Source: an uncultured Thioclava sp.
GTDB lineage: Bacteria > Pseudomonadota > Alphaproteobacteria > Rhodobacterales > Rhodobacteraceae
DNA: 46,662 nucleotides
Direction: 5' to 3'
Assembly (NCBI RefSeq): GCF_913064665.1
Contig: NZ_CAJYBT010000027.1
Location: forward strand, 1-46,662
The notes under the pieces are model-generated. The model saw only the letters and a program-made list of their open reading frames with translations. It made no database searches and had not been told where the DNA came from. Positions 1 to 36,895 of this stretch are shown piece by piece. Position 1 is the stretch's first letter, and each line of letters opens with the position of its first letter. The position numbers and the translations under genes were made by a program.

Positions 1-465
1 GGGAGGGGAGGGAGGGCACCCGGCGGCTGGGTAGACTCGGGCGAGGCGGGCACGGGCCGGAGGGGCCGGCTGGCGGCCCCGGCCGGGGGGCGGTGGGCCG
101 ATGGGCTGCGGGCGCGGGACACCGCCGAGGAAGAGGCACGGGTCGAACGCCGCATCCCGCCGTCGCGGGTCGTGTGCCCCTCAAGGGGCAAAGGGGGCCA
201 TCTGACGGGGAAAGGCTTGCACCGCCTGCTCAAGGATATTGCCGTCAGCGCGGGCATCAGCCCTGCCAAGGTCACGCCCCATGTGCTGCGCCACGCTTTC
301 GCGACCCACCTGCTGCAAGGGGGCGCCGACCTGCGCGCGATCCAGATGCTGCTGGGTCATGCCGATCTGTCCACCACCGAGATTTACACCCATGTTCTCG
401 ACGAGCGCCTCAAAGAACTTGTGCTAGAACATCACCCCCTTGCCAAACGTGATCGCAGCGCTTGA
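1..465 (+). CDS. xerD: Tyrosine recombinase XerD, C-terminal part (5' end outside window)
   Basis: This is the C-terminal catalytic part of a Xer site-specific recombinase, which resolves chromosome dimers at dif near division. The H-x-x-R motif ([12 protein letters not shown]), the second histidine (LLGH) and the nucleophilic tyrosine (EIYTH) are all visible. The tail ([14 protein letters not shown]) resembles XerD more than XerC. The frame is open from base 1, so the gene begins upstream. From about base 115 the translation follows the family; before that it is glycine- and arginine-rich and does not, which suggests poor sequence at a contig end. The arginine and lysine of the active site that lie further upstream are not visible. 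XerD rather than XerC is an inference from the tail. Confidence 0.85.
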
Positions 466-18606: not shown

Positions 18607-19383
18607 TCAAACCGTGCGGCTAACCATCATCTTTTTGATCTCGGCAATCGATTTCGCCGGGTTCAGGCCCTTCGGGCAGGTCTTGGTGCAGTTCATGATG
18701 GTGTGGCAGCGATACAGTTTGAAGGGGTCTTCAAGCTGATCAAGGCGCTCGGCGGTGGCTTCATCGCGCGAGTCGATGATCCAGCGGTAGGCATGCAGCA
18801 GCGCTGCCGGGCCAAGATACTTGTCGCCATTCCACCAGTAGCTCGGGCACGAGGTCGAGCAGGACGCGCACATCACGCATTCATACAGACCATCCAGCTT
18901 CTTGCGATCTTCGATCGACTGACGCCATTCCTTTTCGGGACGGTTGGTCTTGGTTTCCAGCCACGGCATGATCGAGGCATGCTGCGCATAGAACATCGTC
19001 AGATCGGGGATCAGATCCTTGACCACTGGCATATGCGGCAGCGGGTAGATTTTGACATCGCCCTTCACCTCATCCAGCCCGTAAATACAGGCCAGCGTGT
19101 TGATGCCGCCGATATTCATCGCACAGGACCCGCAAATCCCCTCGCGGCAAGACCGACGGAAGGTCAGCGTCGGATCGATCTCGTTCTTGATCTTGATCAG
19201 CGCGTCCAGAACCATCGGACCGCATTTGTCCATGTCTAGGAAATAGGTATCCAGACGCGGGTTTTCCCCGGTATCGGGGTCCCAGCGATAAATCTGGAAT
19301 TTGCGGATAGTCTTGCCATCCGGCTTCGGCCAAGTCTTTCCGACGCGGATTTTAGAATTCTTCGGAAGCGTGAACTGAACCAT
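18607..19383 (-). CDS. sdhB: Succinate dehydrogenase iron-sulfur subunit
   Basis: This 258-residue iron-sulfur protein passes electrons from the flavoprotein to quinone. The [2Fe-2S] ligands are C79, C84, C87 and C99 ([17 protein letters not shown], then TLACIYG). The [4Fe-4S] and [3Fe-4S] sites are formed by [13 protein letters not shown] and [14 protein letters not shown]. The start is [10 protein letters not shown] (ATG 19381-19383), with AAGGGGGA at good spacing. A longer reading to 19500 adds 39 residues unlike the family. It is the last gene of the sdhC-D-A-x-y-B operon, separated from sdhA by two small lipoprotein genes. A terminator follows at 18532-18556. Confidence 0.95.
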
Positions 19384-19402
19384 TTCGGTCCCCCTTTTTC
19401 CG

Positions 19403-19723
19403 TCAATACGAATAGAGCGGCCGCGTGGGCATACGGCCGGATTTGCGATAGACACAGGCGTCATAGGCGGCCGAGGCATCGCCCTGAACCGTCGCGCCAA
19501 GATTGAGCTGAAGTTTCATCTTCGTGTAGGCACCGTCAGTGGTAGCCCCCATGCGCCCCTCGCCGCTGATCGGCGCCGAAGAAGCATATTGCGTATAGCA
19601 CTGGCGTTCTGCGGTCTCGACGGTGACAGGGGCGCAGGCCGAAACAGCCAGCGGCAAGGCCAGCACAGCCATCGCGCGCCCCAAAGGCGCCGCCGATCCG
19701 TTCTGCTGACCTGTCCACCCCAT
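19403..19723 (-). CDS. Small lipoprotein of unknown function inside the sdh operon (second insert)
   Basis: This is a putative 106-residue lipoprotein. The hydrophobic segment [15 protein letters not shown] ends in a lipobox-like VSAC. The mature part is about 77 residues, with two cysteines (ERQCYTQY and [10 protein letters not shown]) that could form a disulfide, and ends PLYSY. The start at 19723 has AGGGA about seven bases upstream; an ATG two codons earlier is too close to that site. It lies 20 bases before sdhB and 10 bases after the other insert, in the same orientation. I do not recognise the family. Genes in this position occur in relatives as far as I recall, but their role is unknown. 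A cell-envelope location is inferred from the signal. Confidence 0.75.
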
Positions 19724-19732
19724 GCGCATCCC

Positions 19733-20056
19733 CTAGTTCAGCCCGAGCTTGTTTTTGGCGATGCAGGTCACGGTATCGGGGCGTTTGGCGACATCCATCA
19801 CGGTGGACACCGTGCTGTCGTCAATCCCCGTCACCGTAGCCTTGGCGATCGTGAAGACCTCGTTCATCGAGGCATTGTCGATGATGCAATCGGTCACCGG
19901 GGCGGCATTCAGCCCCGGCATTTTGCTTTCGACAACCGTGTTGACCACCGTCTTGGCCTGCCCGCGTGCAACCTCTTCAGCAGATTGCTGAAGCGGCGCG
20001 CTCATCTGGCAGGCGCAAAGCCCGGTAAGGGCCACGAGGAACGCAAGCGAGCGCAT
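19733..20056 (-). CDS. Small lipoprotein of unknown function inside the sdh operon (first insert)
   Basis: This 107-residue putative lipoprotein begins [16 protein letters not shown], a short signal with lipobox LCAC. The mature region has two more cysteines (PVTDCIID and DTVTCIAKNKLGLN), likely a disulfide, and a central Thr/Val/Asp-rich segment (KATVTGIDDSTVSTVMDVAKR). Its ATG shares one base with the sdhA stop (TGATG at 20054-20058), so it depends on sdhA translation. The longer reading to 20197 overlaps sdhA deeply and is rejected. I do not recognise a function. Tight coupling to sdhA hints at a role tied to complex II abundance, but the protein should sit outside the cytoplasm. Confidence 0.75.
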   Translation of the reverse strand: MRSLAFLVALTGLCACQMSAPLQQSAEEVARGQAKTVVNTVVESKMPGLNAAPVTDCIIDNASMNEVFTIAKATVTGIDDSTVSTVMDVAKRPDTVTCIAKNKLGLN

Positions 20057-21861
20057 CAATAGACCCGCTTCTTGGGCGCGATCTTTTTGAGATTGATGCC
20101 GCCCTGATCTTCGGGCGTCAGCGGGTCCATATGGACGGGGCGGAAGGTCAGATCGACCTTGTTGCCATCCACATGCATGATCGAGTGCTTGCGCCAAGTC
20201 TTATCGTCGCGATCGGGATAGTCCTCATGGGCATGTGCTCCGCGGGATTCCTTGCGCGCCTCGGCCCCGACGATGGTCGCCAGAGCGTTGGGCATCAGGT
20301 TTTCCAGCTCGAGCGTTTCCATCAGGTCCGAGTTCCAGACCAGCGAGCGGTCGGTGACCTTGATATCGTCAAGCTTGGCTGCCACGGCCGTCATCTTCTC
20401 GACGCCTTCGGCCAGCGTCTTGTCAGTGCGGAAGACGGCGGCATCCGATTGCATGGTCCGTTGCATCTCAAGGCGCAACTCGGCGGTGGGGGTGCCACCA
20501 TCGGCGTAGCGGATCTTGTCGAACCGCTCGAACACGGCGTCGATCTTGGCTTTCGGGATCGCACGGTTCTCGGTCTCGGGGTCAATGATCTGACCGGCGC
20601 GGATAGCGGCGGCACGACCAAACACCACAAGGTCGATCAGCGAGTTCGAGCCCAGACGGTTCGCCCCATGCACCGAGGCAGAGCCTGCCTCACCCACGGC
20701 CATCAGGCCGGGAACGATCGCATCCGGGTTATCAGCGGCGGGATTGATCACCTCGCCATGATAGTTCGTCGGGATACCGCCCATGTTGTAGTGCACGGTC
20801 GGCAGCACCGGGATCGGTTCTTTGGTGACGTCAACGCCTGCGAAAATCTTGGCGCTTTCCGAGATACCGGGCAGGCGCTCGTGCAGCGCTTCGGGCGGCA
20901 GGTGGCTGAGGTTGAGGAAGATGTGATCTTTGTGCTCACCCACACCGCGGCCTTCGCGGATTTCCATCGTCATGCAACGCGACACGACATCGCGCGAGGC
21001 TAGGTCTTTGTAGGTCGGCGCGTAGCGCTCCATGAAACGCTCGCCTTCGGAGTTGGTCAGATAGCCCCCCTCGCCGCGCGCGCCTTCGGTGATCAGGCAG
21101 CCAGACCCGTAGATGCCGGTGGGGTGGAACTGCACGAATTCCATATCCTGCAGCGCAAGACCCGCCCGCGCCACCATGCCACCGCCATCGCCGGTGCAAG
21201 TATGCGCCGAAGTGGCCGAGAAGAACGCGCGCCCGTAGCCACCCGTGGCCAGAACGACCATCTTGGCGTTGAAAACATGCATCGTGCCATCGTCGAGCTT
21301 CCAGCAAACGACGCCCTGACATTGCCCGTCATCGGACATGATCAGGTCGATCGCAAAATACTCGATGTAGAATTCGGCATTGTGCTTGAGCGATTGACCA
21401 TAAAGCGTGTGCAAAATCGCGTGGCCGGTGCGGTCAGCCGCCGCACAGGTGCGCTGCACGGGCGGGCCTTCGCCGTATTCGGTGGTGTGGCCGCCGAAGG
21501 GACGCTGGTAAATCTTGCCCTCTTCGGTGCGCGAGAACGGCACGCCGTAATGCTCCAGCTCGTAAACCGCTTTGGGGGCTTCCCGCGCGAGATATTCCAT
21601 CGCGTCGTTATCGCCCAGCCAGTCAGAGCCCTTGATCGTGTCATACATATGCCACTGCCAGCTATCGGGGCCCATATTGCCCAGAGAGGCGGCGATGCCC
21701 CCCTGCGCGGCCACGGTATGCGAGCGCGTCGGGAACACTTTGGTCACGCAGGCTGTGCGCAGGCCTTGTTCGGCCATGCCGAGGGTCGCACGCAGGCCAG
21801 AGCCACCAGCGCCCACCACAACGACATCGTAATTATGCGTTTCGTATTCGTAAGCTGCCAT
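20056..21861 (-). CDS. sdhA: Succinate dehydrogenase flavoprotein subunit
   Basis: This 601-residue flavoprotein oxidises succinate to fumarate in the TCA cycle at the cytoplasmic face of complex II. The FAD-binding motif [12 protein letters not shown] (15-26) is present. H48 in [16 protein letters not shown] is the residue that carries covalent FAD in the family. Substrate-binding and active-site segments are intact ([25 protein letters not shown] with a split; [11 protein letters not shown]). The length is as expected. It lies 14 bases downstream of sdhD, and its TGA overlaps the ATG of the first small lipoprotein gene. Confidence 0.96.
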
Positions 21862-22286: not shown

Positions 22287-22676
22287 TTACAGATGAATGA
22301 TGATAAGGGTCAGCGCGGTCAGCACGACCGAACCGATGATGCAGATCCAGCCAAGAAGTTCGGCTGTTTTGATATCCATCATCTTGGCACTGTCCCAGAT
22401 GAGGTGCCGGATGCCCGCAAGGTAGTGATACCACACCCCCAGCAGCGACAACGTAAACACCAGATCGCCAAACCATGAGGTCGCAATCGCGTTCACAAAG
22501 TTAAAATAGCCCGGGCTCGTCGCAGCGGCGAGCAGCCACCAGACAAGCAGCAGCACCCCGACGATAATCCCGTTGCCCGTGATCCGCGTCAGGATCGAGG
22601 ACATCGAGGTCATTTGCGGGCGATAGATTTGGAGGTGGGGGGAAAGCGGGCGTTCAACCGGTTTCGCTTCAGCCAT
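22287..22676 (-). CDS. sdhC: Succinate dehydrogenase cytochrome b556 subunit
   Basis: This 129-residue subunit has three transmembrane helices and carries the haem with SdhD. The N-terminal motif RPLSPHLQIYRPQMTSMSS is the family signature. The histidines in WYHYLAGIRHLIWD include the haem ligand. The ATG at 22674-22676 has AAGGGA six bases upstream. The longer reading to 22820 adds 48 residues lacking family character. It is the first gene of the operon. The 242-base upstream region has a possible TTGACG -35 box (22811-22816, minus strand) with paired GTGATCAC palindromes just beyond it. Confidence 0.92.
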   Translation of the reverse strand: MAEAKPVERPLSPHLQIYRPQMTSMSSILTRITGNGIIVGVLLLVWWLLAAATSPGYFNFVNAIATSWFGDLVFTLSLLGVWYHYLAGIRHLIWDSAKMMDIKTAELLGWICIIGSVVLTALTLIIIHL

Positions 22677-22835
22677 GTTCGGTCCCTTCGTGCTATGCCA
22701 ATGAGCCGCGTGCGAGGGCACAAATGCGGCGAGGCTGGCCGGAATTGACTTTGGTGTAGCGTAATTTTCGCCGGAGTCACGAGGGCAGAGACAGGAATCC
22801 GACGGAAATTCGTCAAACAAGGGCGAAAAATCCGC

Positions 22836-22868
22836 TTTGTGATCACAAATTTTCAGAGCGTGATCACA
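22836..22868. promoter_or_regulatory. Paired GTGATCAC operator upstream of sdhC
   Basis: A perfect 14-bp palindrome TTTGTGATCACAAA (22836-22849) and a second core GTGATCAC (22860-22867) have centres 21 bp apart, two helical turns. TGTGATCAC and GTGATCACA also form an inverted repeat with a 13-base spacer. It lies about 160 bp upstream of the sdhC ATG and about 20 bp beyond a possible -35 box, a place typical for an activator. The same layout recurs at sucC. Confidence 0.75.
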
Positions 22869-22918
22869 TGTTACCGCTCGAAGTCCTGCGCGCGGTCTCA
22901 GTCAGCACAAAGTGCGGA

Positions 22919-23953
22919 TCAAACCGGCATCAAGGCCCAATAGTCGAGATCAAGCAGCACTTCGGGGGCGTATTTCCCGTCTTCACCCTTATAGGTGAAC
23001 TCTGTCGCGCCCTGCTTGGTGGCCACCAAGCGCAGCCGGATCGCACCGACGCCGGGCGCAACTGTCTCGACCTTATCGAGCACCTCGGACCATGCCTTGA
23101 CGGTATCGCCCGCAAAACACGGGTTGGCATGGGCGCCGCCGTTCAGCGCCACGATCATCTGCGCATTGGCCAGCCCGTTGAAGGACAGCGCGCGCGCCAT
23201 GCTGATGATATGCCCGCCATAGATCAGCCGTTTGCCATCCTCGCGGAAAGTCGCATCGAAATGCACCTTGGCGGTGTTCTGCCACAGTCGCGTGGCGATC
23301 ATATGCTCGGCTTCTTCGATCGTGACGCCATCCACATGGTCGATCTTTTCGCCGATCTCGTAATCGCCCAGCCGATGCGGCTCGCCTGCCAGCTCGAAAT
23401 CGTAATCGTCGAAACTCAACCCCTCGGGGATCACCAGATCAGCCGGGTCCACAACGCTCGCAAGATCGGGGACCACCGTTTCGGGCGCAGGCGCGTCAAA
23501 GTCGCGTTTGCGCACCATCACCCAGCGCACATATTCCAGAACGATCTCATTCACCTGATTGAAGCCGCGCGTGCGCACATAGACCACGCCTGATTTTCCA
23601 TTCGAGTTCTGCTTGACGCCGATCACCTGCGATTCCGAGCGCAGCGTATCGCCGGGATAGACCGGTTTGAGCCAGCGCCCCTGCGCATAGCCCAAATTCG
23701 CCACGGCATTGAGCGAAACATCCGGCACCGTTTTGCCAAACACGACGTGAAAGGCGATCAGATCATCCAGCGGCGACCCTTCCAACCCGCAATTGGCCGC
23801 AAACTCGTCACTGGAATACAGCGCATGGCGCGTCGGATAGAGCGCATGATAAAGTGCGCGCTCGCCCTCTGCCACGGTGCGCGGCACGGCATGACGGATC
23901 ACATCACCGACCGCGTAGTCCTCAAAGAAGCGACCCGGATTGGTTTTGCCCAT
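22919..23953 (-). CDS. mch: MaoC-family dehydratase, probable mesaconyl-CoA hydratase
   Basis: This protein of about 344 residues has two hotdog domains. The first starts FFEDYAVGDVIRHAVPRTVAEGERA, with a break. The second starts YEIGEKIDHVDGVTIEEAEHM and includes FDATFREDGKRLIYGGHIIS. The length and two-domain form fit mesaconyl-CoA (2-methylfumaryl-CoA) hydratase. In the ethylmalonyl-CoA pathway that enzyme forms beta-methylmalyl-CoA. Position between sdh and a CitE-family gene matches the arrangement I know from Rhodobacter sphaeroides. I start at ATG 23951-23953, the second of two adjacent ATGs, for better spacing to GGGAGAG; the first would overlap the DUF1737 stop by 4 bases. Substrate specificity is an inference from context. 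Confidence 0.85.
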   Translation of the reverse strand: MGKTNPGRFFEDYAVGDVIRHAVPRTVAEGERALYHALYPTRHALYSSDEFAANCGLEGSPLDDLIAFHVVFGKTVPDVSLNAVANLGYAQGRWLKPVYPGDTLRSESQVIGVKQNSNGKSGVVYVRTRGFNQVNEIVLEYVRWVMVRKRDFDAPAPETVVPDLASVVDPADLVIPEGLSFDDYDFELAGEPHRLGDYEIGEKIDHVDGVTIEEAEHMIATRLWQNTAKVHFDATFREDGKRLIYGGHIISMARALSFNGLANAQMIVALNGGAHANPCFAGDTVKAWSEVLDKVETVAPGVGAIRLRLVATKQGATEFTYKGEDGKYAPEVLLDLDYWALMPV

Positions 23954-24156
23954 CATTGCTCTCCCAGCTTCATGTCGGGGTGATAGTCCCCGTCGATTTC
24001 CTTGGTCACCGCCTGCGCGCACCGCATCACGCCGCGCGCGCCGTCAAAGGCATATTGCGGATCGCCATAAATCTCCCAGCCCTTCGACAGCGCCAGCGAG
24101 ATCTTGTGACAAAAGGCAGACGTGTCGTCTTCGGTGAGCAGGCGGTAGATTTTCAT
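23953..24156 (-). CDS. DUF1737-domain protein
   Basis: This 67-residue small cytoplasmic protein has the pattern YRLLTEDDTSAFCHKISLALSKGWEIYGDP, broken once, followed by AQAVTKEIDGDY. This is the DUF1737 signature: an alternating helix and strand of unknown function. I start at MKIYRLL (24154-24156); the stop of the NnrU-like gene lies one base before that ATG. Its stop overlaps the start of the mch-like gene, so three genes are packed with no spacing. Its role is unknown. Coupling to mesaconyl-CoA hydratase could mean it assists that enzyme, but nothing in the sequence shows this. Confidence 0.82.
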   Translation of the reverse strand: MKIYRLLTEDDTSAFCHKISLALSKGWEIYGDPQYAFDGARGVMRCAQAVTKEIDGDYHPDMKLGEQ

Positions 24157-24157
24157 G

Positions 24158-24709
24158 TCAGGCCCCGAACGGGTTGTAGCCAAACCAGATATGGATCGCA
24201 GCGATCAGCCCATAAAGCACCAGCGTGCCCACGATCCCACCGATTTCCTTGCCGGTATTGACCTGCGGATGGGGTATGGCCGGTTTGCTCTGCTTGTTGA
24301 TCAAGATCACCTCGATCACCGCCCAAGCCAGCAGCCCGCCAAACAGGATAATGCCCGGCAGCGTCGGATTGACGAGCAGGTGGGCCAGCGCCCAGGTCTT
24401 CACGCCGGTCAGTTGCGGATGGCGGATCTTGCCGCTCAGCCACAGTTTCATGCCTGAAACCGCGAACAGATACACCGCGAACAGCATCAGCAGGTTGTTG
24501 ATGCCCTTCAGCGCGGCATTGGGCGTCCAGAGGTAAAAGACCGGATCGCTCATCCGCCAGCCAAGGAACATCAGCACAAGGCTCAGCAGCACCAGCGCGG
24601 TCACCATCGGGCGCTCGGCCCCTTTCATCGCGCGCCGGAACCCCGGAAAAAGCCGTTTCGCGAGATGTGCAAGCGACCACATGAGGACGCCGAGAATAAG
24701 TAATGCCAT
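24158..24709 (-). CDS. NnrU-family membrane protein
   Basis: This 183-residue integral membrane protein has about five or six helices. The start MALLILGVLMWSLAHLAKRL and the motif KIRHPQLTGVKTWALAHLLVNP, broken once, are typical of NnrU. NnrU was named for genes near denitrification loci, and relatives act in isoprenoid or carotenoid pathways in plants, but the bacterial biochemical role is not settled. It lies 12 bases after the CitE-family gene and one base before the DUF1737 ATG, so it belongs to the same operon. No nitrogen-oxide reductase genes are nearby, so a denitrification role here is unsupported. Confidence 0.8.
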   Translation of the reverse strand: MALLILGVLMWSLAHLAKRLFPGFRRAMKGAERPMVTALVLLSLVLMFLGWRMSDPVFYLWTPNAALKGINNLLMLFAVYLFAVSGMKLWLSGKIRHPQLTGVKTWALAHLLVNPTLPGIILFGGLLAWAVIEVILINKQSKPAIPHPQVNTGKEIGGIVGTLVLYGLIAAIHIWFGYNPFGA

Positions 24710-24721
24710 TGCGTAAGTCCC

Positions 24722-25582
24722 TTAGCTGCCAAGCGCGGCAATCGCCTGCGCTTTCGCCAAGACCTGCCGCGCGGTCACGATATGCAGATTTTCTACGATC
24801 TTACCATCCACAACCGCCACCCCCTGCCCTGCGGCCTTGGCCGCCTCAAAGGCGGTGATCTGGCGCTCGGCAAGGTCAATCTCGGCCTCGGACGGTGCGA
24901 AGGCGGCGTTGCAAACCTCAAGCTGCGCGGGATGGATCAGCGTTTTGCCATCAAAGCCCATGTCGCGGCCCTGATCGCATTCAAACTTGAGCCCCTCGTC
25001 ATCCTTGAACGCATTATAAACGCCATCGACGATGATCTTACCATGCGCCTTGGCGGCCAGCAGACACAGGCCCAGCCCGGCTTGCATCGGCAAACGGTCA
25101 GCGCGGAAACGACTACCCAGTTCCTTGGCCAGATCGTTGGTGCCCATCACCATGCCCTCAAGACGCGGATAGGCGGCGATTGCGCCCGCATTAAGCATGC
25201 CCAGCGCCGTTTCCATCATCGCCCAAAGCGGCACGCCTTGGATGAGATCGGCCACGGCATCCAGATCCGCAGGGGTCGAGACCTTGGGGATCAGGATCGC
25301 ATCAACCTTGGCGCCCGCGCGGATCGCATCGGCAAAAGCCAGCACATCTTCGCGCCCCCATTCGGTATCCAGCCCGTTCACGCGCACGATTTTCAGCCGC
25401 GCGCCGTAATCGGCCTCGCTCAGGGTTTTCGCCAAAAGCGCACGCGCATTGGCTTTCTCATCAATCGCCACCGCGTCTTCGAGATCAAAGATGATCGCAT
25501 CGCAGGCCAGCCCGGTCGCCTTTTCCAGCGCACGCTCTTTCGAGCCGGGAATGTAAAGGACGGAACGCGTCGGGTGAGCCAT
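24722..25582 (-). CDS. CitE-family enzyme, probable (3S)-malyl-CoA thioesterase (Mcl2-like)
   Basis: This 286-residue TIM-barrel protein of the CitE/malyl-CoA lyase family has RSVLYIPGSKERALEKA at the start, the metal-binding acidic motif FDLEDAV (E35, D36) and the second ligand region METALGMLNAG. The family cleaves or hydrolyses malyl-CoA-type esters. In Rhodobacter sphaeroides the paralogue in this neighbourhood is the (3S)-malyl-CoA thioesterase, which frees malate from malyl-CoA, while the lyase lies elsewhere; I transfer that by context. A lyase or citramalyl-CoA role remains possible. The start MAHPTRS (25580-25582) has GGAGA five bases upstream; an ATG four codons earlier is weaker. 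It heads the operon with NnrU, DUF1737 and mch. Confidence 0.8.
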   Translation of the reverse strand: MAHPTRSVLYIPGSKERALEKATGLACDAIIFDLEDAVAIDEKANARALLAKTLSEADYGARLKIVRVNGLDTEWGREDVLAFADAIRAGAKVDAILIPKVSTPADLDAVADLIQGVPLWAMMETALGMLNAGAIAAYPRLEGMVMGTNDLAKELGSRFRADRLPMQAGLGLCLLAAKAHGKIIVDGVYNAFKDDEGLKFECDQGRDMGFDGKTLIHPAQLEVCNAAFAPSEAEIDLAERQITAFEAAKAAGQGVAVVDGKIVENLHIVTARQVLAKAQAIAALGS

Positions 25583-25760
25583 TTGATTCTCCATGTCGTA
25601 ATTTTCTTTCGCCAGATCGCACATTTCGGACAGAATCGGCAAGGGTAGATTTGCCGCATCGCAGAAATGCGCTGCGTCGCGTCATCGTGGCGCGCTCGGT
25701 TAACCGTATTTTCGGACCTTCGCAGCAGGCTGGTGCTATTGTGTTCCGAGAGGGTTCGCC

Positions 25761-26072
25761 ATGCTGCACAAGATGATCGCCTTGTCCTTTGGCTTTGTCG
25801 CGCTGATTCTGCTTAGCGGACGCAGCTTTGCCCAAGAGGCCACCTGCGCCCCACGCGATGATCTTATCGCACAGCTGCAATCGCGCTATCTGGAAACCCG
25901 GCGCGCCGTTGCGCTGGCGGCGAACAATTCGGTGGTTGAGGTGTTCGCCGCAGAGTCGGGCAGTTGGACGATTCTTGTGACCCAAGCCTCGGGGATGAGC
26001 TGTCTGATCGCCTCGGGCGAGGCGTTTGAGGCGGTGCGTGATCGCCTCCCGACGGCGGGCGCGCCGCTTTAA
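25761..26072 (+). CDS. Small exported protein of unknown function
   Basis: This 103-residue protein has a signal peptide (about residues 1-25, ending GRSFAQE; no lipobox). The mature part of about 78 residues has cysteines in EATCAPRD and GMSCLIASG that could pair, with a helical stretch between (LIAQLQSRYLETRRAVAL). It is probably periplasmic. Its stop and that of the convergent TauE-like gene lie within the same TTAA (26069-26072), so the two genes overlap by four bases tail to tail. I do not recognise a function. Similar short proteins with a conserved C-terminal SGMSC-type motif occur in Rhodobacterales as far as I recall. Confidence 0.72.
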   Translation: MLHKMIALSFGFVALILLSGRSFAQEATCAPRDDLIAQLQSRYLETRRAVALAANNSVVEVFAAESGSWTILVTQASGMSCLIASGEAFEAVRDRLPTAGAPL

Positions 26073-26815
26073 GTGAAGAGAGATTGCTGAACCAGCTTCA
26101 GGGAAATCAGCAAAAGCGCCCAGATCACGATCTTGTAAAAAATTACGGTTGGCATCCGCTTCACCAGCCACACCCCCAGAAACACCGAGGCCGAGGCCGG
26201 AACCGCCAAGATCAGCGCCGTGCCAAGACTGTGCCAATTCACCTCGCCCAGCGCGATATAGGGCCCAAGCTTGGCAAGATTCACATAGGAAAACAGCACC
26301 GTCGCCGTGCCGGCAAAAACCTGTTTTGGCAGGTTCAGCGGGATCGTATAAGTTTGAAATGGCGGCGCGCCGGAATGGCTGACAAAGCTGGTGAACCCCG
26401 CGATTGTGCCCCAAAACAGACCCGGCGCGACCTTGGCCTCTTGCCGCGCGCCCATCTTGTGGCGCAACAACGCGTTCAGCGAGAACGCCACGCCAATCCC
26501 CCCCACCATCAACGTCACCCAGCGCTCGGGCACAATTTCGGCAGTGGCCCAACCAATGCCGATGCCGATGGTTGTGGCGGGAATCATGATCAGCAAAACG
26601 CGCTTGTCGAATTCCTTGCGATAGGCCCAAAGCCCGAACATATCCGCGATGATATAGACTGGTAGCAGCAGCCCCGCCGCCTCGACCGGGTTCATCACCA
26701 CCGCCAGCACCGGCACCGAGATCGAGGCCGCCATCGGGATGCCGCCCTTGGACAGGCCAACCATCACCGCCGCCAACAGCGCAATCGCCCAACCCGAAGT
26801 CGTCAGTTCCAACAT
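26069..26815 (-). CDS. TauE/SafE-family permease
   Basis: This 248-residue membrane protein has about eight hydrophobic segments. The first motif, LLAAVMVGLSKGGIPMAAS, and the second half, GFTSFVSHSGAPPFQTYTIP, are characteristic of TauE/SafE (DUF81) proteins. These are thought to export sulfite, sulfoacetate or other small organic anions. The substrate is not evident here. I start at ATG 26813-26815 (MLELTTSG); a TTG three codons earlier is less likely. It is transcribed away from mdh, and the 260-base region between the two genes should hold divergent promoters. Confidence 0.83.
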   Translation of the reverse strand: MLELTTSGWAIALLAAVMVGLSKGGIPMAASISVPVLAVVMNPVEAAGLLLPVYIIADMFGLWAYRKEFDKRVLLIMIPATTIGIGIGWATAEIVPERWVTLMVGGIGVAFSLNALLRHKMGARQEAKVAPGLFWGTIAGFTSFVSHSGAPPFQTYTIPLNLPKQVFAGTATVLFSYVNLAKLGPYIALGEVNWHSLGTALILAVPASASVFLGVWLVKRMPTVIFYKIVIWALLLISLKLVQQSLFT

Positions 26816-27030
26816 TGCGCCCAAACCTTGTTAGAATCGCCGCCCCTGTGCGCGCCCACAGTGCATGCCACGCAGTTAACCGTTTGGAAACCGTGCGCTT
26901 CGCAGAGGCAATGTGCATACGTCCGCCAAACCGCAAGCCCACGCTATTTTTGCATACAATCGCATACATCCCTGCCCCGGAGGCGATGCCGCGCCGCAGA
27001 ACCCTTGCCCTCGGGCTGGCAAAGCGCTAG

Positions 27031-28038
<1,008 letters not shown>

Positions 28039-28062
28039 TCGACACCTGACTGTTTTGACATT

Positions 28063-28090
28063 AGGGCGCGCCGGATGGTGCGCCCTTTTT
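28063..28090 (+). terminator. Rho-independent terminator of mdh
   Basis: GGGCGC (28064-28069) and GCGCCC (28080-28085) form the stem, followed by TTTTT, 25 bases after the mdh stop. The T-run ends on the stop codon of the convergent glycosyltransferase gene. Confidence 0.85.
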
Positions 28091-29151
28091 CATGCGCTCA
28101 TCAAGGGCGCCGGATCAAAGCCGAGCGTGTCATGCAACCGCGCAATCAGATCTGCCTCATGCGCGATCAACGCGCGATCAAACGCGGCGGGGCTAAGATC
28201 GACCTTGCTTCCAAACAGCGCGTCAACCTCGGCGGCGATCGGCACATCGGGGCGCGTCAGCAACCCATGTTCTTCAAGTTCCACAGCCTCATAATCACGC
28301 AGGCCCTGCACCTGCCACCACAGATCGCGAAGCCCCTCGGGGTCGTCGGCGAAATCCGATGCGGCGGCAAACTGCGCCGTGCGCGGGGCGACATAGGGCA
28401 CCGGTTGCCCCTGCACCTTCGTGGTGGCACGTCGCAGCATCTTGAGAATGTAATGCAGCGGCGTCAGCCCGTCGAAATGCAGCAGGCGGGCGTTATAGCT
28501 GGGGCGATAGGGCAGATCGTTGACCTTGCTATCCCAATGCGACAGCGGGAAATGCACGCCAATTGCATAACCATGCCCCGAGCGCACAATCGGCTTGCCC
28601 GCGATATGCCCGCCCACACCCCGGTTTAAAAATCGCTTGCGCGTGCCATAAAACAGCAGGCCCTCTTTTTCGAACCCGTCCCATTTGCGCCGAAATGCGC
28701 CCTCGAAAATTGTCGCCCCCGGTCCCTCGTCAAGATAGCAGCGCTCATCGACCTCAAAGCGAATCCAGGCCTTTTGCGGGCCGGTCTTTTCCAGCTCCCA
28801 CTCCAAGGGGCGCTCAACGCGGACATATTCATCGGCATCGCAATGCACGAGCCAATCCAGCTTGGTCTCATTGAGAATACGGGTCGCGTTGTATTTCTGG
28901 CGACCCTGGTGGCGCGCGGGGCGTTTCTTGCGCCATCCCTGTTGCCAATCATCCTCGCCACTCTGATGCACATGCGCGCCCGCGACATCGGCCAAAAGCG
29001 CCTCGGCCTCGGGATTGGGGCGGTCTAGAAAGACATGCACTTCGCGCGCGCCCGCTGCCAGGTGATGGGCCACGAACGCCGCGACAAGTGGCGCAGGTTC
29101 GTCCACGGTGGAAACCACGCCCCAACTGGGCATTTGCGGGTCTTGCGTCAT
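28090..29151 (-). CDS. Glycosyltransferase family 2 protein (Glyco_tranf_2_4-like)
   Basis: This 353-residue cytoplasmic protein resembles family-2 glycosyltransferases. The fold starts with VVSTVDEPAPLVAAFVAHHLAAGAREV, with a break. The catalytic D-x-D is D105-A-D107 within WLVHCDADEYV. A basic stretch (RKKRPARHQGRQKYN) precedes it. Such proteins in Rhodobacterales transfer sugars to surface polysaccharides, but donor and acceptor are unknown. It has no membrane segment or signal. It is isolated between mdh and sucC on the opposite strand and has no glycan genes beside it. Its 5' end faces the sucC operators, so it could share that regulatory region. Confidence 0.8.
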   Translation of the reverse strand: MTQDPQMPSWGVVSTVDEPAPLVAAFVAHHLAAGAREVHVFLDRPNPEAEALLADVAGAHVHQSGEDDWQQGWRKKRPARHQGRQKYNATRILNETKLDWLVHCDADEYVRVERPLEWELEKTGPQKAWIRFEVDERCYLDEGPGATIFEGAFRRKWDGFEKEGLLFYGTRKRFLNRGVGGHIAGKPIVRSGHGYAIGVHFPLSHWDSKVNDLPYRPSYNARLLHFDGLTPLHYILKMLRRATTKVQGQPVPYVAPRTAQFAAASDFADDPEGLRDLWWQVQGLRDYEAVELEEHGLLTRPDVPIAAEVDALFGSKVDLSPAAFDRALIAHEADLIARLHDTLGFDPAPLMSA

Positions 29152-29241
29152 ACGGCCGTCATACTCCGTTCGATAGATACGCGCGCAGGTGACTCGATTT
29201 TGACGAGTCGCGCCAGTGCAAGCAGGTCACAGCCGACAAAT

Positions 29242-29286
29242 TTGCTTTTGTGATCACACCCTGATGGCGCGTGATCACAAAAGCAA
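29242..29286. promoter_or_regulatory. Paired GTGATCAC operator upstream of sucC
   Basis: TGTGATCACA (29249-29258) and GTGATCAC (29271-29278) have centres 21 bp apart, exactly as at sdhC. Together with flanks they form a perfect 16-bp inverted repeat (29242-29257 with 29271-29286) around a 13-base spacer. It lies in the 244-base gap between the divergent glycosyltransferase gene and sucC, about 110 bp before the sucC ATG. A regulator dimer pair is implied; its identity is unknown. Confidence 0.78.
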
Positions 29287-29395
29287 GATTTTCGCACGAC
29301 TCTGAGCAAAGACAACCGATTTAGGTTTTTTAAACGGCACAAACGCCCTAGAAGCCCTGCCAATCGCACCAGCAACCAGCATGGGGTATCTGAGG

Positions 29396-30589
29396 ATGAA
29401 CATCCACGAGTATCAGGCCAAACAGCTTCTCAAGAGCTATGGCGCACCGGTCTCTGACGGCCGCGTTGTGCTTCGGGCCGAAGACGCCAAAACCGCCGCC
29501 GGAGAGCTTGACGGCCCGCTTTGGGTCGTAAAAGCACAAATCCACGCCGGCGGACGTGGCAAAGGCCATTTCAAAGAGCCCGAAGCGGGCGAAAAAGGCG
29601 GCGTGCGCCTTGCGAAATCGGTCGAAGAGGCCGAAACGCTGGCCAAGCAGATGCTTGGCAAAACACTGGTGACGCACCAGACTGGCCCGGCGGGCAAGCA
29701 GGTCAACCGTATCTATATCGAAGACGGTTCGGACATCACGCGCGAGCTGTATCTTGCACTTCTCGTGGATCGCGTGTCCTCGCGCGTTTCGATCGTGTCC
29801 TCGACCGAAGGCGGCATGGACATCGAAGAAGTCGCAGCCTCCACCCCGGAAAAAATCCTGAGCTTCTCGATTGATCCCGCCACGGGCTATCAAGCGTTCC
29901 ACGGCCGTCGCGTCGCGTTCTCGCTGGGTCTGCAAGGTGTGCAGGTCAAGCAGATGGTCGCGCTGTTGGGCAATCTCTACAAAGCCTTCATCGAGAAAGA
30001 CATGGAGCAGCTTGAGATCAACCCGCTGATCGTGATGACCGACGGCAATCTCAAAGTTCTCGACGCGAAAGTCGGCTTTGACGGCAACGCGATGTATCGC
30101 CAGCCCGACATCGCCAATCTGCGCGACGAAAGCGAAGAAGATTCCAAAGAGCTTGAAGCGTCGAAATACGACCTGAACTACATCGCGCTTGACGGTGAGA
30201 TCGGCTGCATGGTGAACGGCGCAGGTCTGGCGATGGCCACGATGGACATCATCAAACTTTACGGCGCAGAACCGGCCAACTTCCTGGATGTCGGCGGTGG
30301 CGCGACCAAGGAAAAAGTGACCGAAGCGTTCAAAATCATCACCTCGGACAAGAACGTCAAAGGCATTCTCGTCAACATCTTCGGCGGCATCATGCGCTGC
30401 GACATCATCGCCGAGGGCGTAATTGCCGCGGTGAAAGAGGTCGGTCTGCAAGTGCCGCTCGTTGTGCGCCTTGAAGGCACCAACGTGGAACTCGGCAAAG
30501 ACATCATCAAGAACTCCGGTTTGAACGTGATCGCGGCCGACAACCTGTCGGACGGTGCCGAGAAAATCGTCAAAGCGGTGAAAGGTTAA
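29396..30589 (+). CDS. sucC: Succinyl-CoA synthetase beta subunit (ADP-forming)
   Basis: This 397-residue subunit of succinyl-CoA synthetase makes ATP or GTP from succinyl-CoA in the TCA cycle. The start [16 protein letters not shown] is universal. The ATP-grasp region ([19 protein letters not shown], broken once, and LEINPLIV) and the C-terminal [14 protein letters not shown] motif are intact. I start at 29396; an in-frame ATG five codons earlier is not in the family. It is the first gene of the suc operon. Its stop is four bases before sucD. Confidence 0.95.
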
Positions 30590-30593
30590 TCCC

Positions 30594-31478
30594 ATGGCAG
30601 TCCTCGTTAACGAAAACACCAAAGTCATCTGCCAGGGCTTCACCGGCTCGCAGGGCACGTTCCACTCGGAACAGGCGATTGCCTATGGCACGAAAATGGT
30701 TGGCGGCGTGACGCCGGGCAAAGGTGGTCAAGACCATCTTGGCCTGCCGGTCTTCAACTCGGTCCACGAAGCGAAAGCCAAGACCGAAGCCAACGCGACC
30801 GTCATCTACGTCCCGCCGCCCTTCGCAGCGGATTCCATCCTTGAGGCGATCGACGCCGAGATGGAGCTGATCGTGTGCATCACCGAGGGTATCCCGGTGC
30901 TCGACATGATGAAGGTCAAGCGCGCGCTGATCGATTCCAAATCGCGCCTGATCGGCCCGAACTGCCCCGGTGTCATCACGCCCGACGCCTGCAAGATCGG
31001 CATCATGCCCGGCCACATCCACAAGCGTGGCTCGGTCGGTGTTGTCTCGCGCTCGGGCACGCTGACCTATGAAGCTGTGAAACAGACCACCGATATGGGT
31101 CTGGGCCAGTCCACCGCAGTGGGCATCGGCGGCGACCCGATCAAAGGGACCGAGCATATCGACGTGCTCAACATGTTCCTCGATGATCCGGAAACCACCT
31201 CGATGATCATGATCGGTGAAATCGGCGGTTCGGCCGAAGAAGAAGCCGCCGAATTCCTCGCCGAGCAGCGCAAAAAAGGCCGCTGGAAACCCACCGCGGG
31301 CTTCATCGCGGGCCGTACGGCTCCTCCCGGCCGTCGCATGGGCCATGCCGGTGCGATCGTCGCGGGCGGCAAAGGCGATGCCGAATCCAAGATCGAAGCG
31401 ATGAAATCGGCCGGTATCGTGGTTGCTGACAGCCCCGCGACGCTGGGCGAAGCGGTCATGAAGGCGATCAAAGGCTAA
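30594..31478 (+). CDS. sucD: Succinyl-CoA synthetase alpha subunit
   Basis: This 294-residue subunit binds CoA and carries the phosphohistidine intermediate, the histidine in [15 protein letters not shown]. The CoA-binding motif [17 protein letters not shown] and the [10 protein letters not shown] segment are intact. It is directly downstream of sucC and likely translationally coupled. After its stop there is a GC-rich hairpin, then two genes for small exported proteins before sucA. Confidence 0.95.
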
Positions 31479-32425: not shown

Positions 32426-35377
32426 ATGACCGAACAATCCCCCAATGATCAGTTCAACGCCTCACAATTTCTGCAAGGCGCCAACGCGGAATATGTCGAG
32501 CAGCTTTATGCGCGCTTCGCCGAAGACCCGTCTTCGGTGGACACGGCTTGGGCTGCGTTTTTTGCCTCGCTGGGTGATCCCGAGCAAGACGTCAAGAAAT
32601 CGGCCGCCGGTGCAAGCTGGGAACGCAGCGATTGGCCGCCGGTCTCGTCAGACGATCTGACGGCGGCACTCACGGGCGAATGGCCCGCGACCGAGGGCAA
32701 GGCCGTTGCCGAGAAGATCAAGAAAAAAGCCGCTGATGCCGGCGTTGCCATTGATGAGGGCGCGATCAAACGCGCCGTGCTGGATTCGATCCGCGCGCTG
32801 ATGATCATCCGCGCGTTCCGGATCCGGGGGCACCTTGCCGCTGATCTTGACCCGCTGGGGATGCGCGAAGAATTGCCCCATCCCGAACTGGACCCGAAAA
32901 GCTACGGCTTTACCGATGCCGATATGGATCGCCCGATCTTCATCGACAACGTTCTGGGGCTGGAAGTCGCCTCGATGCGTCAGATCATGGATCTGGTGAA
33001 ACGCACCTATTGCGGCACCTTCGCGCTGCAATACATGCATATTTCCGACCCCGTGCAATCGTCCTGGCTCAAAGAGCGGATCGAGGGTTACGGCAAGGAA
33101 ATCACCTTTACCAAGACCGGACGCCGCGCGATCCTCAACAAGCTGGTTGAGGCCGAAGGGTTCGAGAAATTCCTGCACGTCAAATACATGGGCACCAAGC
33201 GTTTCGGCCTTGATGGCGGCGAGGCGCTGATCCCCGCGATGGAGCAGATCATCAAACGCGGCGGACAGTTGGGCCTGCAAGAGGTCGTGATCGGCATGCC
33301 CCACCGGGGCCGTCTGTCGGTGCTGGCCAATGTGCTGAGCAAACCGTTCCGCGCGATCTTCCACGAATTCCAAGGCGGCTCGTTCAAGCCCGAAGACGTG
33401 GATGGCTCGGGCGATGTGAAATATCACCTCGGCGCTTCGGCGGATCGCGAGTTTGACGGCAACAAGGTTCACCTGTCGCTGACCGCCAACCCCAGCCACC
33501 TTGAGGCCGTGAACCCGGTCGCCTTGGGCAAAGTGCGCGCCAAGCAGGACCAGCTGAACGATCAGGCCGACCGCACCAAGGTGATGTCGATCTTGCTGCA
33601 TGGCGATGCGGCCTTTGCCGGTCAGGGTGTGGTTGCGGAATGTTTCCAGCTTTCGGGCATTCGCGGTCACCGCACGGGCGGCACGATCCACCTTGTCGTG
33701 AACAACCAGATCGGCTTTACCACCGCGCCGCACTTCTCGCGCACCTCGCCCTATCCGACCGATCTGGCCCTGATGGTCGAGGCCCCGATCTTCCACGTCA
33801 ACGGCGATGACCCCGAGGCCGTGGTGCACGCCGCACGCGTCGCCATCGAGTTCCGCCAGAAATTCCACAAAGACGTGGTGATCGACATCTTCTGCTACCG
33901 CCGCTTTGGTCACAACGAAGGCGACGAGCCGATGTTCACCAACCCGGTGATGTACAAGGCGATCAAGACTCACAAGACCACCTTGCAGCTTTATACCGAA
34001 CGTCTGATCGCAGACGGGCTGATGCCCGAAGGCGAGATCGAGGATATGAAAGCCGCGTTCCAAGCCCATCTCAACGAAGAGTTCGAGGCCGGGAAGGTGT
34101 TCAAACCGAACAAGGCCGACTGGCTCGACGGTCGCTGGTCCGGATTTGAGCAGGAAAAAAGCGAGTATGAACCGGGCTCAACCGCGATTTCTCCCGATAC
34201 ATTCGCTGACGTCGGCAAAGCATTGGTCACGCCGCCCGACGGGTTTGCGCTGCACAAGACCGTTGCGCGCCTGCTGGAAAACAAAAAGCAGATGTTTGAA
34301 ACGGGCACCGGCTTTGACTGGGCCACTGCCGAGGCCTTGGCGTTCGGCTCGCTCGTCACCGAAGGGGTGCCGGTGCGCCTGTCAGGGCAGGATGCCACGC
34401 GCGGCACCTTCTCGCAGCGCCATTCGGCCTTTGTCAGCCAGACCGACGAGGACCGCTATTACCCGCTGAACCACATCCGCGAGGGCCAAGCCCGGTTCGA
34501 GGTCATCGACTCGATGCTTTCGGAATACGCGGTGCTGGGTTTCGAATATGGCTACTCGCTGGCTGAACCCAGCACGCTGACCCTGTGGGAGGCGCAATTC
34601 GGTGACTTCGCCAATGGCGCGCAGATCATGTTCGACCAGTTCATCAACTCGGGCGAGCGCAAATGGCTGCGCATGTCGGGGCTCGTCTGCCTCCTGCCGC
34701 ACGGCTTTGAGGGTCAAGGCCCCGAGCACAGCTCGGCCCGTCTTGAGCGTTACCTGCAGAACTCGGCGGAAGATAACTGGATCGTAGCGAACTGCTCGAC
34801 CCCGGCGAACTACTTCCACATTCTGCGCCGCCAAATCCATCGCGACTTCCGCAAGCCGCTGATCCTGATGACGCCGAAATCGTTGCTGCGTCACCCGAAA
34901 TGCGTCTCCAAGGCCGATGAATTCACCACCGGCTCCACGTTCCACCGCGTATTGTGGGATGATGCGGAAATGGGCAATTCGGATCTCAAGCTGAAATCCG
35001 ACGACAAGATCAAGCGCGTCGTGATCTCCTCGGGCAAGGTCTATTATGACCTACTCGCTCAGCGTGACGAACGCGGCCTTGATGATGTCTACCTGTTGCG
35101 TCTCGAACAGTTCTACCCGTTCCCCGCGCAGGCGATGACCAAGGAACTCACCCGGTTCAAGAATGCCCAGATCGTCTGGTGTCAGGAAGAGCCGAAAAAC
35201 CAAGGCGCGTGGAGCTTTGTCGAGCCCTATATCGAATGGGTTCTCGCCAAGATCGACGCCAAACATGCCCGTGCGCGCTATGCCGGTCGCGGTGCCTCGG
35301 CCTCGCCCGCAACGGGTCTGGCGAGCCGCCACAAAGCCGAGCAGGAAGCGCTCGTCAACGATGCATTGGAGGGTTGA
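32426..35377 (+). CDS. sucA: 2-oxoglutarate dehydrogenase E1 component
   Basis: This 983-residue thiamine-diphosphate enzyme decarboxylates 2-oxoglutarate and passes the succinyl group to the E2 lipoyl arm. The N-terminal peptide YVEQLYARFAEDPSSVDTAW, the region VIGMPHRGRLSVLANVLSKP (broken once), the ThDP motif GDAAFAGQGVVAECFQLSG...VNNQIGFTT and the C-terminal SGKVYYDLL are complete. GAGG lies nine bases before the ATG. The length is normal for the family. Its TGA lies four bases before the sucB ATG, within one operon. Confidence 0.95.
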   Translation: MTEQSPNDQFNASQFLQGANAEYVEQLYARFAEDPSSVDTAWAAFFASLGDPEQDVKKSAAGASWERSDWPPVSSDDLTAALTGEWPATEGKAVAEKIKKKAADAGVAIDEGAIKRAVLDSIRALMIIRAFRIRGHLAADLDPLGMREELPHPELDPKSYGFTDADMDRPIFIDNVLGLEVASMRQIMDLVKRTYCGTFALQYMHISDPVQSSWLKERIEGYGKEITFTKTGRRAILNKLVEAEGFEKFLHVKYMGTKRFGLDGGEALIPAMEQIIKRGGQLGLQEVVIGMPHRGRLSVLANVLSKPFRAIFHEFQGGSFKPEDVDGSGDVKYHLGASADREFDGNKVHLSLTANPSHLEAVNPVALGKVRAKQDQLNDQADRTKVMSILLHGDAAFAGQGVVAECFQLSGIRGHRTGGTIHLVVNNQIGFTTAPHFSRTSPYPTDLALMVEAPIFHVNGDDPEAVVHAARVAIEFRQKFHKDVVIDIFCYRRFGHNEGDEPMFTNPVMYKAIKTHKTTLQLYTERLIADGLMPEGEIEDMKAAFQAHLNEEFEAGKVFKPNKADWLDGRWSGFEQEKSEYEPGSTAISPDTFADVGKALVTPPDGFALHKTVARLLENKKQMFETGTGFDWATAEALAFGSLVTEGVPVRLSGQDATRGTFSQRHSAFVSQTDEDRYYPLNHIREGQARFEVIDSMLSEYAVLGFEYGYSLAEPSTLTLWEAQFGDFANGAQIMFDQFINSGERKWLRMSGLVCLLPHGFEGQGPEHSSARLERYLQNSAEDNWIVANCSTPANYFHILRRQIHRDFRKPLILMTPKSLLRHPKCVSKADEFTTGSTFHRVLWDDAEMGNSDLKLKSDDKIKRVVISSGKVYYDLLAQRDERGLDDVYLLRLEQFYPFPAQAMTKELTRFKNAQIVWCQEEPKNQGAWSFVEPYIEWVLAKIDAKHARARYAGRGASASPATGLASRHKAEQEALVNDALEG

Positions 35378-35380
35378 TTG

Positions 35381-36895
35381 ATGTCCACTGAAGTCCGCGT
35401 CCCGACGCTTGGAGAAAGCGTCACAGAGGCCACCGTCGCCACCTGGTTCAAGAAGCCGGGCGATCCGGTCGCCGCCGATGAGATGCTGTGCGAATTGGAA
35501 ACCGACAAGGTGACCGTCGAGGTGCCTGCACCCGCCGCAGGCACTTTGGGCGAGATCGTCGCCGCCGAGGGTGAAACCGTTGGTGTCGACGCCTTGCTGG
35601 CAACAATCGAAGCCGCCGGGGCTGGCACCGCCGCTCCGAAACAACAAGATAAACCGGCGGAGAAGCCCGCTGCAGCCCAATCGAATGAGGGAAAAATGGT
35701 CGACGTAATGGTGCCCAGCCTTGGTGAATCTGTCACTGAGGCCACAGTTTCGACGTGGTTCAAAAAGGTTGGCGATGTGGTCGCGGCCGATGAGATGCTC
35801 TGCGAGCTGGAAACCGATAAGGTCTCCGTCGAAGTGCCCGCCCCTGCGGCTGGTGTGTTGCAGGCAATCGTCGCCGAAGAAGGCGCGACCGTGGATGCCT
35901 CCGCCAAACTGGCCGTGATCGCCGAGGGCGCAAGCGCCGGTGCAGCACCTGCCGCTCCCGCCGCGAAATCCGACGCCCCCGCCACGGGTGGCAAGGATGT
36001 CGAAGACGCCCCTTCGGCCAAAAAACTGATGGCTGAAAAGAACATCGACCCGTCCTCGGTTCAGGGCTCGGGCAAAGATGGCCGGATCATGAAGGAAGAC
36101 GTGACCAAGGCCGCATCGGCCCCCAAAGCGGCCTCTGTTTCGGTCGCCCCTGCCCCCGCCGCCACCCCGCGCGGCCCGATCAACGCCGATGACGGCGCAC
36201 GCGAAGAACGGGTGAAAATGACCCGCCTGCGCGCCACCATCGCCAAGCGCCTGAAAGACAGCCAGAACACCGCCGCGATGCTGACCACCTATAACGAGGT
36301 GGACATGTCGGGCGTCATGGACCTGCGCAACGAGTACAAGGACCTGTTCCTGAAAAAGCACGGCGTGAAACTGGGCTTCATGTCCTTCTTCGTCAAAGCC
36401 TGCTGCCATGCGCTGAAAGAAGTCCCCGAGGTCAATGCCGAGATCGACGGCAACGAAGTGGTCTACAAGAACTACGTCCATATGGGCGTGGCGGTCGGCA
36501 CGCCGTCGGGTCTCGTGGTGCCGGTGGTGCGCGATGCCGATCAGATGGGCTTTGCCTCGATCGAGAAGACCATCGCTGAAATGGGCACCCGTGCGCGTGA
36601 CGGCAAACTCTCGATGGCCGACATGCAGGGCGGCTCGTTCACCATCTCGAACGGTGGCGTCTACGGCTCGCTGATGTCCTCGCCGATCCTCAACCCGCCG
36701 CAATCGGGTATCCTCGGCATGCACAAGATCCAGGACCGCCCGATGGTCGTGAACGGTGAAATCGTGATCCGCCCGATGATGTATCTCGCACTCAGCTACG
36801 ATCACCGCATCGTCGACGGCAAAGGCGCCGTGACCTTCCTCGTGCGCGTCAAAGAAGCGCTCGAAGACCCGCGCCGGTTGCTGATGGATTTGTGA
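35381..36895 (+). CDS. sucB: Dihydrolipoyl succinyltransferase (E2 of 2-oxoglutarate dehydrogenase) with two lipoyl domains
   Basis: This 504-residue E2 core has two near-identical lipoyl domains. The attachment lysines are K43 and K147, both in [17 protein letters not shown], offset by 104 residues. An Ala/Pro linker joins them. A peripheral subunit-binding domain follows (about 210-245: [20 protein letters not shown]), then the catalytic domain with [15 protein letters not shown]. Most E2o proteins have a single lipoyl domain, but tandem copies are known in some Rhodobacterales. The ATG at 35381 has GGAGGG in the end of sucA at good spacing; a TTG one codon earlier is unlikely. Confidence 0.94.

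Follow-up and report, generated by a model that had tools for sequence, protein, structure and literature searches.

The DNA examined here, referred to below as the window, is a stretch of 46,662 nucleotides from an uncultured Thioclava sp. (contig NZ_CAJYBT010000027.1). It carries two operons of the tricarboxylic acid (TCA) cycle, sdhCDAB and sucCDAB-lpd, and each of them is preceded by two copies of the palindromic core GTGATCAC set 13 bases apart. These paired cores, which we believe to be operators of the GntR-type regulator AkgR, are the subject of this text. The cores and the genes of the two operons are listed first.

22860..22867, minus strand: distal GTGATCAC of the putative sdhC operator, exact match, centred at 22863.5, near -118 relative to the predicted sdhC start site
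22839..22846, minus strand: proximal GTGATCAC of the same operator, exact match, centred at 22842.5, near -97 relative to that start site
29250..29257, plus strand: distal GTGATCAC of the putative sucC operator, exact match, centre 29253.5
29271..29278, plus strand: proximal GTGATCAC of the same operator, exact match, centre 29274.5
22287..22676, minus strand: sdhC (Sdh_cyt; Pfam PF01127, E 6e-26)
20056..21861, minus strand: sdhA (Pfam)
18607..19500, minus strand: sdhB (Pfam Fer2_3 from residue 67; bounds of the open reading frame, the true start being probably further in)
29396..30589, plus strand: sucC (NCBIfam NF001913 from residue 6; open reading frame from 29381, conserved MNIHEY start at 29396)
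30594..31478, plus strand: sucD
32426..35377, plus strand: sucA (2-oxoglutarate dehydrogenase E1)
35378..36895, plus strand: sucB (E2)
37447..38835, plus strand: lpd (dihydrolipoyl dehydrogenase)

Both pairs, at 22839-22867 before sdhC and at 29250-29278 before sucC, match GTGATCAC-N13-GTGATCAC exactly, with 21 bp from centre to centre. At sucC, the outer flanks extend the symmetry to a perfect 16-bp inverted repeat (29242-29257 versus 29271-29286). The sequence-only reading of this stretch had described the same four cores, spacing and inverted repeat and had seen no other complete copy in the window, in particular none before mdh. These observations were confirmed: the window search found no exact pair before mdh, and in the whole genome (3.72 Mb) exact pairs are present only at the sdhC and sucC places. 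One more single GTGATCAC lies in the window at 13899, within an OmpA-like coding region. From base composition, 0.6 exact 8-mers would be expected in the window and 5 were observed; for exact pairs, the expectation is 8e-6 per window and 6e-4 per genome, against the two observed in the genome. Single TGTGATCACA sites elsewhere in the genome, on contigs C3 and C10, were inspected for open frames and are not counted as targets.

The pair is widespread among relatives. When pairs with spacers of 3-33 bases were searched in 394 genomes of the same family, they were detected in 361, and the reversed pattern, serving as control, in 2 of the 394. The commonest count was two pairs per genome (as it appears in the survey table, not tallied). 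Targets were classified for all 75 pairs of the 36 pair-positive genomes with every place given, the Thioclava genome aside; 30 of these pairs lie in loci L012-L041, 44 were fetched separately and one is in L182. Spacers of 12 or 13 bases were present in 69 of the 75 pairs, and each of these 69 precedes a TCA-cycle operon: sdhC in 32 cases, sucC in 35, sucA in one (G177, L272, with mdh on the other side) and fumC in one (G042, L263), the frames of the last two being assigned by our own reading. The other six pairs had spacers of 5, 10, 19 or 23; one stands directly before the GntR gene of G187 and five within open frames. Conserved 21-bp spacing before orthologous operons of relatives, suggested as a check by the sequence-only reading, was thus found, together with the proposed link to the TCA cycle. 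The extra spacer-13 pair upstream of a fumC-like gene was seen in L263 and in L321 (G042:C16), and the regulon would consequently reach malate in that genome.

A further 43 genomes were examined, picked for having at least three pairs in the family survey (spacer 3-33); the 36 genomes above include four others of this kind. With spacers of 12 or 13 bases, 33 of the 43 contained two pairs, one contained a single pair and nine contained three or four. The extra pairs inspected (those of G191, G230 and G310 excluded) were located within open frames in G238, G276, G340 and G296 (C328), or formed triple arrays before sucC in G135 and G285. Another extra pair, with spacer 13, precedes a thiolase-like gene by about 200 bp (G296:C168, L314 937-965).

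A named genome collection yielded at least 120 stretches with at least 127 spacer-13 pairs. Among the matches listed, 101 of 127 pairs lie before sdhC or sucC. The 26 others comprise 21 outside Alphaproteobacteria (17 of them within open frames of at least 80 residues), those of L085, L112 and L116, which adjoin mdh at the edge of their loci, the place expected for sucC, and those of L110 and L168, which fall within Rhodobacterales open frames. When a sample of the class was searched, the pair occurred twice in all five genomes of the same family and once each in 4 of 284 others; in G519 of this sample it precedes the gene of a GntR protein whose helix-turn-helix can be aligned with the one in AkgR. 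Pairs with a spacer of 13 or 14 were also seen in another alphaproteobacterial family, beside genes that we read as TonB-receptor-like (L275 992-1020, L274 1501-1530), and the L275 pair also precedes an AkgR-like GntR gene. A possible tie between the 12-bp spacer and the most diverged AkgR orthologs, suggested by G318 and G364, was dropped because the same spacer accompanies ordinary orthologs (G134, G286, G377).

As for the regulator, a comparable regulon is known from Rhodobacter sphaeroides, namely that of AkgR, which we take to be the same protein as RSP_0981 (consistent with the two passages cited below) and whose signal, judging by the regulator's name, is probably 2-oxoglutarate. The distinguishing features of the AkgR regulon found here are operators with a GTGATCAC core, the targets sdh, sucCD and sucAB-lpd, a GntR/FCD regulator in the genome and the co-occurrence of regulator and sites. 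In the passages available, GTGATCAC is given among AkgR binding sites (PMC6365646), and a prediction of 2015 names sucCD, sdh and sucAB-lpd as targets of the GntR protein RSP_0981 (PMC4344238). As far as these passages go, the two systems are alike in core, target operons and regulator family; they differ in genus. In R. sphaeroides the regulator gene is numbered near sdh and suc (RSP_0981 versus RSP_0962-0976). The same excerpt of PMC6365646 describes PS417_07240 of Pseudomonas simiae, a GntR protein of a deoxyribonate cluster with a stated identity of 32% to AkgR, which has the GTGATCAC palindrome at -47 to -40 of its own gene; here the palindrome is shared, but one site is described and it lies at a catabolic cluster rather than at TCA operons. 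The sequence-only reading could match the motif to neither CceR nor AkgR. This holds for CceR, whose strict pattern has no match before sdhC, sucC or mdh in the window, and is not supported for AkgR.

Judging from these excerpts, regulator and regulon are already published for R. sphaeroides. What is added here is the family-wide 21-bp pair, the triple arrays, the phasing at sdhC and the lone akgR site, although we cannot say that these are unpublished. No account of 21-bp pairing, triples, phasing or a lone akgR site is present in the passages available from PMC6365646, PMC4344238, PMC5507952, PMC4419725, PMC11323563, PMC5343134 and PMC4263372; the primary AkgR paper (10.1128/mBio.02461-14) lies outside this scope. 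Literature on TGTGATCACA contained nothing relevant, judged by titles and the starts of abstracts.

Eight FCD-type GntR matches were found in the Thioclava genome, of which the following is most likely akgR, as far as can be told from sequence:

G000:C70:3799-4452, minus strand: candidate akgR, outside the window; 218 aa; FCD match; TGTGATCACA directly before the start

Compared with solved structures, its product belongs to the GntR family (best match McbR, E 2e-20). An ortholog of this C70 GntR at E<=1e-70 was present in 351 of the 361 pair-positive genomes versus 5 of the 33 pair-negative ones (hand count; Fisher odds ratio 197, p 1.7e-29). Among the pair-negative genomes, SucC was present at 69% identity or more in 26, and 3 more had only a relative at 51-54%. 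In two of these 29 (G040 and G291), a pair with one mismatch lies upstream of sucC; both carry the ortholog, and they are the two with a clear sucC among the five pair-negative ortholog carriers, the other three having no usable sucC. In pair-negative G109, where the ortholog match is partial, a single GTGATCAA lies upstream of sucC. Of the 36 listed pair-positive genomes, 15 have the ortholog no more than 20 kb away from a pair and 18 have it on the same contig; in the Thioclava genome it is on a separate 10.3-kb contig. The 31 orthologs compared share 84 invariant positions out of 218, among them S48-P51, R53 and E54 in the helix-turn-helix, and H140, H183 and D205.

The candidate akgR has a GTGATCAC of its own, inside its promoter. 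In the set formed by this gene and its 30 best orthologs (31 loci, 26 from pair-positive and 5 from pair-negative genomes), TTGAC is present near the akgR start in 28. An exact GTGATCAC precedes the start in 18 of the 26 pair-positive loci versus none of the 5 pair-negative ones. In 17 of these 18 loci the site begins 17-20 bp past the first T of TTGAC, the distance being exactly 18 for 13 sites. The predicted position of the site is thus between -35 and -10, reaching the -10 box, where a bound protein should block the promoter of its own gene; this suggests autorepression of akgR.

The anatomy of the operators was examined in 73 sdhC and 91 sucC promoters, those of the window among them. Only pairs with spacer 13 were used, duplicate sequences were dropped, and the exact pair anchored the alignment, so that the cores are invariant by selection. 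The consensus is TTTGTGATCACA-N11-TGTGATCACAAA. Outside it, an AATT 10 bp past the proximal core stands out in sucC but is fainter in sdhC, and an outer AAA flank is conserved at the proximal core of sdhC. The triple arrays of G135 and G285 (L312 919-968, L313 1008-1057) consist of three cores before sucC with 21 bp between each. Counting offsets from the start of the pair, 64 of the 73 sdhC promoters have a [GT]TGAC[AT] box followed 16-18 bp on by a TA-type box (gap 16 in 51 of the 64). The -35 box starts at offset 86-89 in 50 promoters and at 75-77, 97-99 or 107-109 in the other 14. For these 14, phasing gives a vector length of 0.87-0.88 at a period of 10.5-11, as compared with 0.43 at 9 and 0.40 at 13. 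The offsets hence differ by about whole helical turns, which fits activation from upstream. The promoter boxes proposed for the window are these:

22775..22780, minus strand: predicted sdhC -35 box GTGACT, +87 from the pair start; a [GT]TGAC[AT] box as in 64 of 73 promoters
22753..22758, minus strand: predicted sdhC -10 box TACACC, 16 bp past the -35 box
29349..29354, plus strand: possible sucC -10 box TAGAAG, +99 from the pair start; our own reading of the sequence, the automatic fit having chosen another place

From the two sdhC boxes, the start site can be predicted near 22746, with the cores at about -97 and -118. The sequence-only reading had placed the cores where an activator would bind, and this agrees with the distance of about 60 bp by which the pair precedes the conserved -35 box. 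The -35 box it proposed, TTGACG, is indeed present (CGTCAA at 22811-22816, i.e. TTGACG on the minus strand, +51), but TTGAC at +49..53 occurs in one of the 73 sdhC promoters only, that of the window itself. TTGACG is therefore probably not the promoter, and GTGACT is the better candidate. Many relatives carry a GCGCCAAAAAACCGCG-like element in the interval that separates the pair from the -35 box; a RegA/PrrA-type consensus is matched by 16 of 73 sdhC promoters (shuffled mean 0.12) versus 2 of 91 sucC promoters. Its counterpart in the window is GACGAATTTCCGTC (22801-22816, minus strand), which overlaps TTGACG.

In sucC promoters, a TATACC-like box is found at +99 to +103 in 66 of 91, and a strict -10 pattern is matched by 13 of 91. 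An automatic two-box fit took a -10-like box together with a leader element, ACGGGA, instead of -35 and -10, and fitted the sucC promoter of the window poorly; a search of this promoter gave no good -35 box. The sucC start site may be situated near 29361.

From the sites, their spacing and targets, the co-distribution, the phasing at sdhC and the lone akgR site, all of them established in the sequences, we infer binding by the C70 protein, its arrangement in dimers, cooperativity, activation and autorepression. In the explanation we propose, to which we assign a probability of about 0.86, both pairs would be AkgR operators through which AkgR activates sdhCDAB and sucCDAB-lpd, while it would repress its own gene via the lone site. 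One AkgR dimer would occupy each TGTGATCACA, and two dimers 21 bp, i.e. two helical turns, apart would lie adjacent on one face of the DNA. Such a dimer pair may activate both operons from some 85-120 bp upstream of the start site, the bound dimers contacting RNA polymerase or bending the DNA, and a single dimer between -35 and -10 would repress akgR. A single regulator for sdh and suc, as the sequence-only reading had suggested, is supported by these data; its observation stands, and its interpretation is partly supported. A broader generalisation is tentative, and we would grant it slightly less than even odds: the effect of AkgR might be set by the number and position of dimers, a lone site repressing akgR, and two (in two genomes three) upstream sites repeated every 21 bp in register forming a cooperative activating platform. 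The array might then be a family-wide signature of one regulator that has occasionally spread to fumC and sucA.

Several points weigh against this explanation. Five extra spacer-12/13 pairs lie outside TCA operons, so that the pattern is not perfectly specific. The co-distribution counts treat genomes as independent, kinship being ignored, and ten pair-positive genomes have no strong C70 GntR ortholog. Eight of the ten (G019, G096, G264, G319, G325, G033, G273 and G334) are 70-91% complete; G256 is 93% complete, and G114 is 100% complete in 320 contigs. A pair-like sequence with three mismatches precedes sucC in G017, a genome that has no ortholog; it is the best among the upstream regions of the 27 pair-negative genomes that remain of the 29 with SucC or a relative of it. 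The case for equating the C70 protein with AkgR is built from motif, regulon, co-distribution and neighbourhood, and 8 of the 26 akgR loci of pair-positive genomes have no exact site. At sdhC, the vector length falls to 0.75-0.82 if a GTGAC[AT] match at offset 51 is counted without requiring a -10 box. The sucC promoter is poorly defined, and its boxes are placed with far less certainty than those of sdhC.

The opposite sign of regulation deserves consideration, since many GntR/FCD regulators are repressors: AkgR or an AkgR-like GntR protein could bind the pairs and repress sdh and suc, for instance by looping the DNA or by occluding a promoter further upstream. Lying as it does inside a promoter, the lone akgR site does look repressive. 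We nevertheless regard this as unlikely, because the pairs precede the conserved sdhC -35 box by some 60 bp and are in phase with it, and because AkgR is named a transcriptional activator in the available text of PMC6365646. A different protein could act at the pairs, and the sole FCD GntR found in the window, the PdhR-like product of 14104-14871, is encoded about 8 kb from sdhC. At E<=1e-50, however, 7 of 37 pair-positive genomes gave no match to this gene and 11 of 33 pair-negative genomes did give one, its product resembles PdhR/LldR (below their cut-offs), and GTGATCAC was not found directly before it. It was rejected on these match counts, and we see very little probability in its favour.

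Equally unlikely is an assignment of the pairs to CceR (RSP_1663), another central-carbon regulator of R. sphaeroides, which the passages of PMC4344238 predict to act at sdh and mdh. CceR belongs to the LacI family, and its pattern, [AGT]GTT-N6-8-AAC[ACT], is unlike GTGATCAC; the strict expression has no match in 22676-22920, 29150-29381 or 26850-27090, the regions upstream of sdhC, sucC and mdh. Finally, the palindrome might recur by chance or serve another use, such as a restriction or methylation site or a coding repeat. The open-frame location of 17 of the 21 listed places outside Alphaproteobacteria and the single non-TCA pairs within the family would accord with this. Yet both exact pairs of the genome, far above the expected number, stand before TCA operons, and the pair is conserved across genera; a chance origin of the sdhC and sucC pairs is already refuted by this conservation, and we give this explanation a negligible probability. 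Activation through AkgR operators thus remains the reading we prefer.

Among the neighbouring genes, a divergent one at 28090-29151 (353 aa, no NCBIfam match) starts about 100 bp from the sucC pair and might share the sucC operator. For the majority of sucC pairs in relatives, tblastn (E<=1e-8) found no homolog of it that starts within 600 bp. The PdhR/LldR-like GntR gene 14104-14871 adjoins frames that, by our own reading, resemble ATP synthase b subunits. SucC of the window and its counterpart in Thioclava indica (L155) share 98.3% identity.

With the AkgR assignment, an operator pair that had no assigned regulator would be tied to a known one, and control of the segment from 2-oxoglutarate to fumarate by such paired operators would be widespread in the family, in line with the presence of the pair in most of its sampled genomes. 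A testable model for activation by a GntR/FCD protein follows from the strict repeat of 21 bp and from the helical phasing, and the 29-bp signature may be used for annotating TCA-cycle control in genomes and metagenomes.

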